This document shows, in pieces, positions 14,326 to 17,887 of a stretch of DNA of 64,000 nucleotides; position 1 is the first letter of the stretch, and each line of letters opens with the position of its first letter. The notes under the pieces are model-generated. The model saw only the letters and a list, made by a program, of their open reading frames with translations, did no database searches and had not been told where the DNA came from. The stretch lies in NCBI GenBank assembly GCA_016208305.1, contig JACQYI010000078.1:248001-312000 (forward strand), in the 5' to 3' direction. The position numbers were made by a program, and so were the translations under genes. This DNA comes from Oscillatoriophycideae cyanobacterium NC_groundwater_1537_Pr4_S-0.65um_50_18. GTDB taxonomy: Bacteria > Cyanobacteriota > Cyanobacteriia > Elainellales > Elainellaceae.

Positions 14326-15153
14326 ATGATGCAGCAGTTACGCACCGATCTAGAGTTAGCCGATCGAGCAGCGATCGCGACCTATCTGCAATCTGAGTTT
14401 CCCTTCTTAGAGGATGCAGAGACGCTCTCGCCTTACGTAGGAGGGAGAGCAGCAGGGCTTGAGCGTCTGCAAAGCTTTCAGCTAGAGAAATATGGCAAAC
14501 AGCGCAACTTTTTGGATGGCGAAGTCAGCCGCCTCTCGCCCTATGTCAGTCGAGGCTGTTTGACGCTAGAAGAACTGCGGCAATGGGCGCTAAAGCAACC
14601 TCGCTCTCGGTCAGTAGAAGTCTTTGTATTTGAGCTGGGCTGGCGAGCCTTTTTCCATCTGGTGTATGGGGAAGAGGGCGATCGCATCCTGCAAGATCTG
14701 GAGGAACCTAAAGTGCCGATGGGTCAGCATCAGCGATCGCTGCCCGCAGACATTGCCAACGGCACAACGGGCATTCCTTCAATGGATACGCTGATTCAGA
14801 TCTTGCGGGAGACAGGCTATCTGCACAACCATGCCCGCATGTATCTCGCGAGCTATGTGGTTCACTTTCGCAAGGTGTCTTGGCGGGCGGGAGCCGACTG
14901 GATGTATAGCCTGCTGATTGATGGAGATTTTGCCAGTAATCATCTATCTTGGCAGTGGGTCGCCTCTACTTTTTCCACAAAGCCCTACATTTTTAATCGA
15001 GAAAATTTAGAGCGCTACGCTGGCTCTGTGCTGCCAGGTGATCCCAAAAAGGGCGATCCGTTTAACTACTCTTACGAAGCGCTAGCCGAAAGACTTTTTG
15101 GGGGAGCCTATACCCCTGAACCGACTGGAAGACCGACAGGACAATATCAATAA
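14326..15153 (+). CDS. FAD-binding domain of a cryptochrome/photolyase, encoded separately
   Basis: 275 residues equivalent to the C-terminal helical FAD-binding half of photolyase/cryptochrome (FAD_binding_7). Recognisable motifs are LSPYVSRGCLTLEEL, FELGWRAFFHLV, TGYLHNHARMYLASYVV, and LIDGDFASNHLSWQW followed by TKPYIFN, which in photolyases holds FAD, including the Asn next to flavin N5. The N-terminal alpha/beta antenna domain is missing from this protein but is encoded by the next gene, whose ATG abuts this stop codon (TAA-ATG). The two together rebuild a photolyase in swapped order. Photoreceptor or repair function cannot be decided. The Trp positions of an electron-transfer chain would need alignment. 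Confidence 0.82.
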   Translation: MMQQLRTDLELADRAAIATYLQSEFPFLEDAETLSPYVGGRAAGLERLQSFQLEKYGKQRNFLDGEVSRLSPYVSRGCLTLEELRQWALKQPRSRSVEVFVFELGWRAFFHLVYGEEGDRILQDLEEPKVPMGQHQRSLPADIANGTTGIPSMDTLIQILRETGYLHNHARMYLASYVVHFRKVSWRAGADWMYSLLIDGDFASNHLSWQWVASTFSTKPYIFNRENLERYAGSVLPGDPKKGDPFNYSYEALAERLFGGAYTPEPTGRPTGQYQ

Positions 15154-15588
15154 ATGCCTCAATCAACACCTTCATCGCCTTCTCTCATTTGGTTTAACGA
15201 AGATGGGTTGAACCCTGGGCATCAGATGGTCAAAGACTACGCAGATGCTCCTAGAGTCTATGTTTTTGATGTGCCTGAATTACAAAGACAAAAGATTAGT
15301 AAGCATCGCGTTCAATTTATTTACGAGGCGCTACTAGAGATTCCATCTATCCAAATTTATCAGGGCGAAACAGTTGCAGTTCTGTTGCAGCTGATCGCAG
15401 ATTGGGCGATTCGCGAAGTGGTCACAACAGAAACGCCTAACCACATCATTAGAGGCTGGCAAAACGAACTTCAGCGATCGGTTGCTTTAACCACCTATCC
15501 CGATATCTTTCCCGTCACAGATACAACCTCACCACGTCGGTTTTCTCGCTACTGGCGTAAGCATGAGCGATCGTGGTTAACGCTTTAG
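15154..15588 (+). CDS. Photolyase-like alpha/beta (antenna) domain protein
   Basis: 144 residues resembling a minimal N-terminal DNA_photolyase domain: SLIWFNEDGLNP (in place of the usual WFRRDLR), YVFDVPELQRQKISKHRVQFIYEAL, YQGETVAVLLQL, VVTTETPNHIIRGWQNEL, and the interdomain-type tail FSRYWRKHERSW. It follows the FAD-binding gene with no gap. The basic RRDLR residues of true photolyases are replaced by NEDGL, so antenna-cofactor binding may be lost or altered. I infer that it forms a two-subunit flavoprotein with its neighbour. Confidence 0.7.
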   Translation: MPQSTPSSPSLIWFNEDGLNPGHQMVKDYADAPRVYVFDVPELQRQKISKHRVQFIYEALLEIPSIQIYQGETVAVLLQLIADWAIREVVTTETPNHIIRGWQNELQRSVALTTYPDIFPVTDTTSPRRFSRYWRKHERSWLTL

Positions 15589-15677
15589 CCAATACGCCAT
15601 TTGCATGAGGTACTGCTGAACAATCTTGACCGATTCAGTGACCATCCTCTATGATGAAATTGAACTACGGTGTTTGT

Positions 15678-15758
15678 ATGAATTTCGCCAAGCAGTTTTC
15701 TCTACAATTCCTTCTGCTGTTGTCGGGGGTTTCCCGACTGCGCCTGGCGCGCAAATAA
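15678..15758 (+). other. Leu-rich 26-codon frame with hairpin and T-run
   Basis: ATG at 15678 opens a 26-codon frame with seven Leu, four in a row (QFLLLLSG). Its distal half overlaps GTCGGG/CCCGAC (15722-15738) and TGCGC/GCGCA (15739-15753) hairpins, the second followed by TTTTT (15759-15763). This resembles a leader peptide with an attenuator but lacks a convincing ribosome-binding site and lies 370 bp before leuA. Confidence 0.25.
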
Positions 15759-15950
15759 TTTTTGACCCACAACCCCAATATCTATTCTGATTGCACCCTT
15801 ACAGCCTGCGATCGCAGAGCCGTTCTGCCCGGAATAGAAGCCATCCAATAGAGAGCGATCTAGTAGAGGCACAGGATTCTGTCTCTCGATCTTTGATCGC
15901 AGTATCTTTTGTCACGAGTTTATCCTTACTCCTTTCCTTCAGAGGTTCTT

Positions 15951-16136
15951 ATGGAACTCCATTTTTTGCTGCTTGCACTGTCACTTCGACTGCCAATGGG
16001 CTATCAGAGTTTGAGTCTGCGGCAGCCTGATAGCTCCAATGTTTCTAGCGTAGTTTTTCCTAAAAAATTCATTGCCGTAGCCATCCATTATTTGATTCAC
16101 AGTCCTATACGACATCGGAGAAAGCGATCGTGTTAA
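15951..16136 (+). CDS. Candidate Leu-rich leader peptide of leuA
   Basis: An ATG at 15951 with AGAGG five bases upstream opens a 61-codon frame starting [14 protein letters not shown]: seven of the first 14 codons are Leu, and two more follow by codon 23. The frame ends TGTTAA at 16136, overlapping the GTG start of the leucine-pathway enzyme by 7 bp, so translation of the two could be coupled. Leader peptides rich in the pathway amino acid control leu operons in other bacteria (established for enterobacteria and predicted for actinobacteria); application here is inference. The longer in-frame start at 15909 lacks a comparable ribosome-binding site. A 10-bp stem-loop follows the Leu-rich part. 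Confidence 0.45.
15998..16036 (+). promoter_or_regulatory. Stem-loop in the leuA leader, possible attenuator
   Basis: GGGCTATCAG (15998-16007) pairs with CTGATAGCTC (16027-16036) with one G-U. A competing pairing CTGCC (15990-15994)/GGCAG (16021-16025) would disrupt it, as expected of alternative attenuator folds. The first T-run (16054-16058) is 17 nt after the stem, so a simple intrinsic terminator is not clear. Confidence 0.35.
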
Positions 16137-17887
16137 GTAATCCTGCCCGTAAATATCGCCCGTTTGCATCTGTTGATTTGCCCGATCGCACTTGGGTATC
16201 CCAAACCATCACCCACCCCCCTATCTGGTTGAGTACCGACTTGAGGGACGGCAATCAGGCGCTCATTGAACCCATGAGCGTCACTCGTAAACTGCGCCTG
16301 TTTCATTTGTTGGTGCAGATTGGGTTTAAAGAAATTGAAGTTGCGTTTCCCTCTGCATCCCAAACCGACTTCGATTTTGTCCGGCATTTGATTGAGCAAG
16401 ATTTAATTCCCGATGATGTCACCATCCAGGTTTTGACTCCTGCCCGTGAAGCGTTGATTCGCCGCACCTTTGCCTCGTTGGTGGGCGCAAAGCGGGCGAT
16501 CGTTCACTTATACAATGCCACCTCTCCCATTTTTCGCCGCACTGTCTTTGGACTCGATCGAGCCGGAACGATCGAGATGGCGGTTTCCAGCGCTCAATTG
16601 CTCCAGCAGCTTGCCGCCGAACAGCCCCAAACCCATTGGCGGTTTGAGTACTCGCCTGAGACGTTTACCGCCACAGAGCTAGATTTTTCTCGCGAGATTT
16701 GCAATGCTGTTTTAGAGGTTTGGCAGCCCAGCGCAGACCGCAAAGCCATCATCAACTTGCCTGCCACCGTCGAAGTGGCAACGCCCAACGTCTACGCCGA
16801 TCAAGTAGAGTGGATGCACCGCCATTTAGCCTATCGCGATCGCCTCATCTTGAGCGTGCATCCCCATAACGATCGCGGCTCCGGCATTGCCGCAGCAGAG
16901 CTGGCACAGATGGCGGGAGCCGATCGGGTAGAAGGCTGTCTGTTTGGCAATGGTGAACGGACGGGCAATGTCGATTTGGTCACATTGGCGCTGAATCTCT
17001 ACACTCAGGGCATTCATCCCCAGCTTGACTTTTCAGACATCAACGAAGTGGCGCGATCGGTGGAATATTGCAATCAGCTCCCGATTCATCCGCGTCACCC
17101 CTATGTAGGCGATTTGGTGTTCACGGCTTTTTCAGGTTCGCATCAGGATGCGATCAAAAAAGGCTTTGCGGCTCAGCAGCCAGAGGAGGTTTGGCAAATT
17201 CCTTATTTGCCGATCGATCCTGCCGATTTGGGGCGAAGCTATGAATCGGTGGTGCGGGTGAACAGTCAGTCTGGCAAGGGCGGCATTGCTTTTTTGCTAG
17301 AGCAGGAGTATGGATTGGTGCTACCCCGTCGATTGCAGATTGAGTTCAGCCAAGTGGTGCAGCAGGTAATGGATACGAGTGGTATGGAGATGACAGCATC
17401 CATGCTTTGGGAGTTGTTCGATCGCGAGTACCTCAAGGTTGATTCACCGTTGAGATATTTATCCCATGATCTGTCTTCAAGTCTGTCTTCAGGCAGTTCA
17501 GAGAGTTTGTCGGAACAGCAGATTCAGAGCATCTCAGTCTCAGTGGAAAATTCGACTGGCAGATATCAGTTAACAGGTCACGGCAACGGTGCAATCGATG
17601 CCTTGGTGAATGCGCTGAATACTTCTCTAAAGATGGATTTGAATGTTCACTCCTATGAGGAACGATCGCTGAGCCGAGGGAGTGATGCCTTGGCGATCGC
17701 CTATGTTGAAATCACGGGAGCGTTGGTCTCAGGTTCGGTCTACGGGGTCGGCATTGACCCTAATTTCACCACGGCAGCGTTGTTGGCGGTGATCAGTGCG
17801 GTGAACCGTGGGTTTAAGCGATCGGATGGGGGCATGCAAGTGCGGCTTTTGCAGCAGTTAAGCCTCAACTTGCAGCAACAGGTCTAG
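16130..17887 (+). CDS. leuA: 2-isopropylmalate synthase, long (class 2) form
   Basis: 585 residues from a GTG start with GGAGA 10 bp upstream. It condenses acetyl-CoA with 2-ketoisovalerate, the first committed step of leucine synthesis. The TIM-barrel has [12 protein letters not shown] (residues 34-45, metal Asp40), [14 protein letters not shown], and [11 protein letters not shown] (His244 and His246). The C-terminal LeuA_dimer regulatory domain begins near residue 450 after a Ser-rich linker ([16 protein letters not shown]) and is expected to bind leucine. This is the yeast/actinobacterial/proteobacterial-type enzyme rather than the ~535-residue LeuA usual in cyanobacteria, so a second leuA may exist elsewhere. 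Upstream Leu-rich frames suggest attenuation. Confidence 0.88.

Follow-up and report, generated by a model that had tools for sequence, protein, structure and literature searches.

The 64-kb stretch of DNA analyzed here, referred to below as the window, carries a leuA gene for the long-form (yeast-type, type 2) 2-isopropylmalate synthase, preceded by two Leu-rich frames that we call leader A and leader B. The LeuA product scored 790.5 bits against TIGR00970 (curated cutoff 697.4), which places it in the type-2 (leuA_yeast) family, and 884.1 bits against NF002991 (cutoff 455). The features of the locus are the following:

15626 to 15655, plus strand: promoter-like pair TTGACC-18-TATGAT before leader A (one match, alone no more than expected by chance)
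15678 to 15758, plus strand: leader A, MNFAKQFSLQFLLLLSGVSRLRLARK and a stop codon (model R2, E = 3.3e-10 in the source genome)
15722 to 15738, plus strand: candidate hairpin P1 of leader A, GTCGGGG-gtt-TCCCGAC, within the Leu-coding stretch
15739 to 15753, plus strand: hairpin P2 of leader A, TGCGC-ctggc-GCGCA, followed by AATAATTTTT and called terminator-like
15887 to 15899: second terminator-like site, between the leaders, CGATC-ttt-GATCG followed by CAGTATCTTT
15941 to 15945, plus strand: AGAGG, Shine-Dalgarno-like site of leader B, 5 bases before its ATG
15951 to 16136, plus strand: leader B, a Leu-rich frame of 61 codons whose stop overlaps the leuA start (sequence and comparison)
15998 to 16036, plus strand: hairpin of leader B, arms 15998 to 16007 and 16027 to 16036 (model R1, E = 7.8e-14, the locus being part of the model)
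16117 to 16120, plus strand: GGAG, likely Shine-Dalgarno site of leuA, within the leader B frame
16130 to 17887, plus strand: leuA, GTG start (assigned by NCBIfam scores)

A type-1 LeuA is also encoded in the source genome (C60:75461-76984; 800 bits against TIGR00973, cutoff 598.7), which holds two kinds of isopropylmalate synthase, the leaders being carried by the type-2 copy only. The region upstream of the type-1 gene contained no comparable leader, one weak TTG-started frame reaching the start of that gene. The search for Rho in the source genome returned no match over the cutoff and two matches of about 20 bits.

Leader B starts at the ATG at 15951 and has seven Leu codons within its first 14, a content of at least seven that was found in no other of the 1157 ATG-started 14-codon open frames on both strands of the window. 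An earlier, sequence-only reading of this DNA had pointed out this Leu run, the AGAGG site, and the start codon, as well as a 7-bp overlap between the frame's stop (TAA, 16134 to 16136) and the leuA GTG at 16130, and all of these are present in the sequence as described. Across 28 aligned cyanobacterial loci (alignment A1), Leu accounts for 153 of 385 codons upstream of the hairpin vs 34 of 762 downstream, and for 41 and 11 of 385 codons when the stretch before the hairpin is read in its other two frames. The position three codons before the hairpin (-3) is Leu in all 28 loci, where it is written with four codons (CTG 16, CTA 10, CTC 1, CTT 1), and position -5 is Leu in 25 of 28; the synonymous substitutions at these Leu positions point to selection acting on the encoded residue. 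Between these two variable Leu codons, an Arg codon, CGA, at -4 (15987 to 15989) is identical in 28/28 loci; possibly its slow decoding sets where the ribosome stands. A Shine-Dalgarno-like site precedes leader B in 22 of the 28 loci.

The frame is also kept open behind the hairpin, where 2 stops were counted in 603 codons of the leader B frame vs 43 in 1206 codons (18 + 25) of the other two frames (Fisher p = 3.5e-6), a comparison to be read with some bias toward open frames, as the 28 loci were first found through open reading frames that are Leu-rich or reach leuA. It reaches the leuA start in 26 of the 28 loci, 23 of these ending at +7, and ends 17 and 26 nt short of leuA in the other two. 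Because leuA begins with GTG or ATG followed by TTG-A or TTA-A, the start sequence of the gene itself partly accounts for the 7-bp overlap, and the open frame therefore constitutes independent evidence. Two further genomes that lay outside the training set of the R1 model carry the same leader B, which overlaps leuA by 7 bp in G091 and ends 12 nt short of it in G023. The same frame test did not discriminate in 21 additional loci, of which 20 are betaproteobacterial and mostly GC-rich (9, 9, and 8 stops in the three frames). A leader stop at or near the start of the gene, here overlapping it, is the arrangement of translational coupling; since some B leaders end before leuA (L155, L157, and G023 among the cyanobacteria), such coupling would not be universal. 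The sequence-only reading had proposed looking for conservation in relatives, and there the Leu run, the start codon, the hairpin, and the frame overlapping leuA are all kept.

The 10-bp stem noted earlier is likewise present, GGGCTATCAG (15998 to 16007) pairing with CTGATAGCTC (16027 to 16036) with one G-U pair. Its stability as a single sequence is unexceptional (z = -1.46, 15 of 200 shuffles being as good), so that the support for the stem is comparative. In the 28 loci the consensus is GGGTTGTCAGG / CCTGACAGCCC, and standard pairs occupy 94.8% of 308 cells, vs 28 to 54% in slid versions of the pairing. Five of 11 pairs are changed on both sides, a number for which the shuffled mean was 1.9 and which no shuffle attained (0/500); of five measures of the stem, four were equalled by 0 of 500 shuffles and the remaining one by 5 of 500, and the slid controls fell below the stem on every measure.

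The sequence-only reading had placed a competing pairing beside this stem. That pairing does exist as an alternative fold of the one sequence, but it is not a conserved feature: across the 28 loci, neither a downstream partner for the 3' arm (mean p 0.64) nor an upstream partner for the 5' arm (mean p 0.68) was found beyond chance. Leader B thus showed no conserved, mutually exclusive RNA structures of the kind found in attenuators, and no terminator-like site was called behind its hairpin in the window, so the terminator/antiterminator switch that had been considered for leader B is not borne out. As a separate candidate, we considered that the hairpin might mask the leuA ribosome site and rejected this, the mean predicted unpaired fraction of the site over 28 loci being 0.47 in the free sequence vs 0.49 with the 5' arm masked; shifts at single loci ranged from -0.14 to +0.25.

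Where the earlier reading had seen a single Leu leader, the locus holds two: leader B is real, but it is the second of a pair, and leader A (15678 to 15758) had been missed. Leader A typically reads ...SLLLGLGLLLRLGRN; a small hairpin forms its end, and the stop codon usually comes directly after it. Both leaders are thus short open reading frames enriched in Leu codons upstream of leuA, as attenuator leaders are, and it is leader A that gives the interpretation as Leu leaders its strongest support. Across 58 loci, leader A is never preceded by a Shine-Dalgarno-like site. Of 57 distinct cyanobacterial regions, 55 contain TTGAC-N16-19-TANNNT between 115 and 5 nt before leader A (shuffled sequences, 0.8%), with the -10 element ending 22 to 84 nt before the ATG, compared with 1 of 28 loci for leader B. 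Since this promoter-like pair is conserved before leader A and not before leader B, transcription probably begins ahead of leader A, with both leaders on one mRNA. The same distribution lends no support to a transcription start downstream of 15951, a possibility that the sequence-only reading had raised against itself.

Leader A contains two candidate hairpins. Near P1, some other loci have different complementary arms, e.g. CTAGCCT/GGGCTAG and TCTAACCC/GGGTTGGG. The arms of P2 in 57 loci are TGCGCC/GGCGCA (27), TGCGC/GCGCA (20), TGCCC/GGGCA (6), and others (4); because these loci were picked by P2-like patterns (one of the 58, L146, has none), the tally conveys the variety of complementary arms and is not an unbiased count. 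Within 14 nt after P2, 32 of 57 leader A loci have a run of at least four T and 25 have none; the U-tract of roughly half the cyanobacterial loci suggests control of transcription. By itself, P2 is a weak hairpin (-7.2 kcal/mol), and it is one of two terminator-like calls in the window, vs 0.7 expected, the other being the site at 15887 to 15899. RNAalifold on a MAFFT alignment of leader A returned three consensus pairs only, with no double changes; the consensus fold being poor, the hairpins of leader A rest on the pattern tallies, and we treat P1 and P2 as candidates.

To describe the distribution of the leaders, 388 genomes of the class were sampled, 61 of which have a long-form leuA at E up to 1e-100. 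Leader A was found in 58 and leader B in 29 of these 61 genomes; by model match, 27 have both, 31 have A alone, two (G020 and G262) have an R1 match alone, and one (G055) has neither. In G020, leader A can be recognized by eye (L032), the contig of G262 begins 310 nt before leuA, and G055 carries a divergent long-form leuA copy (54% identity). As 31 of the 61 genomes have leader A and no detected leader B, leader B is not required. Among named strains, Phormidium tenue FACHB-886 carries both leaders, and Nodosilinea nodulosa PCC 7104 carries leader A with no leader B detected. The training set of R1, the model of leader B, comprised 27 of the 29 class genomes in which the leader was later found at leuA plus one locus outside the sample, and it did not include G023, G091, or the betaproteobacterial loci; R2, the model of leader A, was trained on 46 leader A segments from loci that it later found.

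R1 matched 31 of the 388 genomes at E up to 0.01. The 28 matches at E below 1e-7 and that of G091 (E 0.0012) all lie on the same strand as a type-2 leuA and at most 1200 nt upstream of it, and the two weak matches, in G173 (E 9.6e-4) and G232 (E 0.0046), belong to genomes outside the list of type-2 leuA. Dropping the open-reading-frame rule and searching by model added only G023 and G091 as leader B loci at type-2 leuA. R2 matched 85 of the 388 genomes, 60 of them at E below 1e-5; 58 of these 60 strong matches are within the 61 leuA genomes, and 57 lie directly upstream of the listed leuA, again on its strand and at most 1200 nt away; in G023 the match precedes a further leuA start located on a different contig. 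The linkage counts cover these 60 strong matches; among the other 25 genomes, the R2 match in G218 (E 1.7e-5) falls inside an open reading frame, and 24 have best E values of 0.0017 to 0.01. Among the 388 genomes, the strong matches of both models all fall at type-2 leuA. The other two strong R2 matches show leader A persisting before partial copies of type-2 leuA, in G099 (L195; about 405 aligned residues) and G263 (L197; internal gap).

Homologous leaders A and B also precede long-form leuA in betaproteobacteria. Although trained on cyanobacteria only, R1 detects leader B ahead of leuA in a Rhodocyclaceae MAG, Candidimonas, Methylovorus, and Ralstonia. Searched over ten betaproteobacterial whole genomes, which had been chosen by their leuA loci, most after an R1 match or a leader B frame had been seen there, it matched in six at E up to 1, with the best match upstream of leuA in 6/6. 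An order-level survey of 200 genomes yielded 65 with the gene, and among the 30 best-scoring of these loci, two of which repeat earlier ones, R1 matched 8 at E up to 0.007 and R2 matched 14 at E up to 0.02. The 7-bp overlap with leuA recurs in 13 of 20 betaproteobacterial B frames, including those of Ralstonia and the Rhodocyclaceae MAG; other frames end within or near the hairpin (L105, L107, L204, L207) or just after it and short of leuA (L089/L090), and the B leader of L225, whose frame is doubtful, also stops short of leuA. The leader in Paraburkholderia is of type A, and the best R1 match on five Paraburkholderia loci had an E of 0.42. At the level of sequence conservation, the frame, Leu content, and hairpin of leader B, the frame of leader A, and the linkage of both to type-2 leuA are established across the two phyla.

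In a tree of LeuA (midpoint-rooted; some loci are entered repeatedly among its 58 cyanobacterial sequences, and the leader B labels on these duplicates are erroneous and were left out of account), the cyanobacterial sequences other than the divergent copy of G055 form one clade (SH-aLRT 98), which joins a proteobacterial MAG (L045; SH-aLRT 90) among the betaproteobacteria. The simplest reading of these sequences is a single transfer of the gene together with its leaders between the phyla.

We consider it rather likely that the roughly 470 nt before leuA act as a two-stage (tandem) leader-peptide control that reads the supply of Leu-tRNA. In such a mechanism, one mRNA starting just before leader A would carry leader A, leader B, and leuA in order, both leaders would be translated, and ribosomes would slow at the Leu codons when charged Leu-tRNA is short, their position setting whether the downstream hairpin opens, i.e., P2 in leader A and the GGGTTGTC stem in leader B. 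The hairpin and the U-rich tract found in about half of the cyanobacterial loci would make the step at leader A a transcriptional decision. Leader B, which shows no terminator and has a frame that runs into the leuA start, most likely acts on the translation of leuA, either because the terminating ribosome is delivered to the leuA start or because that start is occluded. With no switch partner found for leader B, no pairing with the Shine-Dalgarno site beyond chance (see below), and little average change of access to the leuA ribosome site, what remains is an effect of the ribosome itself, by coupling or by occlusion, and which of the two applies decides the direction of the leuA response. In the simplest coupling model, a shortage of Leu would lower leuA expression, against biosynthetic logic.

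A more specific version of the proposal, which we advance tentatively and with well under even confidence, is that leader A decides transcription and leader B the translation of leuA, the module having moved between phyla with its gene and being the first of its kind described in cyanobacteria. Leader B would then combine a stalling frame with a translated hairpin and would operate without a terminator, a competing pairing, or masking of the Shine-Dalgarno site.

It is also possible, though unlikely, that leader B is a translational coupler only, its Leu codons being incidental and leader A being the sole sensor of leucine. The scarcity of stops in the frame between the hairpin and leuA (2 in 603 codons), the frame's arrival at the leuA start in 26 of 28 loci, the Shine-Dalgarno-like sites before leader B in 22 of 28, and the lack of a switch partner would all be expected of a coupler; a Leu content of 40% before the hairpin and synonymous codon changes at fixed Leu positions would not, and several betaproteobacterial B leaders that end in or just after the hairpin nevertheless keep the Leu-rich start and the stem.

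We regard as somewhat less probable still the reading in which ribosomes finishing leader B shut the leuA site and stalling at the Leu codons frees it, so that leuA rises. The direction of this response fits biosynthetic logic, the leader B frame passes through the Shine-Dalgarno site and start of leuA, and leuA has its own GGAG. The 1-nt offset between the leader stop and the leuA start, however, also suits re-initiation, and variants ending 12 to 129 nt short of leuA exist.

A Leu-rich leader described upstream of actinobacterial leuA, the LEU element (Seliverstov et al. 2005), is described as combining a pairing of the Leu codon run with the Shine-Dalgarno site and a pseudoknot (PMC1262725). 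Like the present leaders, it is a Leu-rich frame directly upstream of leuA, and its mode of regulation is described as unclear too (PMC1262725). Pairing of the Leu run with the leuA Shine-Dalgarno region was not beyond chance for leader B (mean p 0.55, n = 28) or leader A (mean p 0.51, n = 27), no locus reaching p 0.05 for either; unlike the LEU element as described, there are two leaders here, each with its own local hairpin, and Shine-Dalgarno pairing was not found. An element of the actinobacterial type, in which Leu codons would form a stem with the leuA Shine-Dalgarno site, is therefore disfavored, and we hold it to be very improbable.

Equally improbable in our judgment is that the product of leader B is a small hydrophobic protein that serves a function of its own. 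The hydrophobic start is conserved in character, but the part behind the hairpin varies in length and sequence, conservation centers on Leu-Arg-Leu and the codons that form the stem, and the product had no match in Pfam or NCBIfam. A chance Leu-rich open frame without function, with which the unremarkable folding energy of the single-sequence hairpin would agree, is scarcely credible, as the comparative results (Leu codons, stem, and model matches) refute it as far as conservation is concerned.

Leader-peptide control of amino acid synthesis is a textbook mechanism. The attenuator of the leu operon, named Leu_leader in Rfam, has one leader and a classical terminator/antiterminator, unlike the present locus, in which there are two leaders, a stop codon overlapping leuA, and no conserved competing pairing at leader B. 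No Rfam covariance model matched at its gathering threshold in the 64-kb window or in eight betaproteobacterial loci. In Escherichia coli and Salmonella, leuL, a short leader peptide with Leu codons, lies upstream of leuA of the leu operon (PMC6123439). Citing another source, the same paper mentions terminator hairpins and putative leaders 'across various Gram-negative species' (PMC6123439), so that the betaproteobacterial leader may have been predicted before. The BCAA operon of Staphylococcus aureus, for the synthesis of branched-chain amino acids, is reported to have a leucine-rich attenuator peptide (PMC5794164); it belongs to a different phylum and operon, and the likeness is one of description alone. 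Cognate-codon leaders with local RNA structure have also been found comparatively in the uORF motifs uORFC-8-2 (cysS) and uORFC-13-1 (aroF), which differ from the present leaders in their genes and taxa, in having intrinsic terminator stems, and in consisting of a single leader (PMC8632094). In the open-access literature, a scope that takes in few subscription-journal papers, we found no cyanobacterial case of leader-peptide control and no leader of betaproteobacterial leuA. The novelty that the sequence-only reading had seen in the cyanobacterial setting accordingly stands for that literature, but the leaders are not confined to cyanobacteria.

If the tandem-sensor interpretation is true, no amino-acid leader-peptide control will have been described in cyanobacteria before this one. 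The two linked Leu leaders are shared by two phyla and go with a single type of gene, and in the source genome no Rho match passes the cutoff. The leaders would offer a concrete test of whether ribosome position is coupled to gene expression in cyanobacteria, and the module is an example of regulation that apparently moves together with the gene it precedes. Leader B's hairpin, for which no partner was found, points to an output step beyond those of classical attenuators.

Several minor observations concern the surroundings of the leaders. In L141 and L148, insertions between leader and gene put the end of leader A at a distance of about 660 and 840 nt from leuA, far above the usual spacing. 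Right behind the stop of betaproteobacterial leader A lies a C-rich, G-poor stretch (e.g., L101, 1748 to 1792), whose composition across 56 mostly Paraburkholderia loci is 42% C and 17% G; this could suit Rho, and we mention it as a lead only. Upstream of the leaders in the window, positions 14326 to 15588 hold an open reading frame with the photolyase FAD-binding domain only (PF03441), followed by a 144-aa open reading frame without a Pfam match, possibly a photolyase split in two. The end of the 144-aa frame resembles the sequence upstream of the leaders in three loci of the same genus (L111, L112, and L113).
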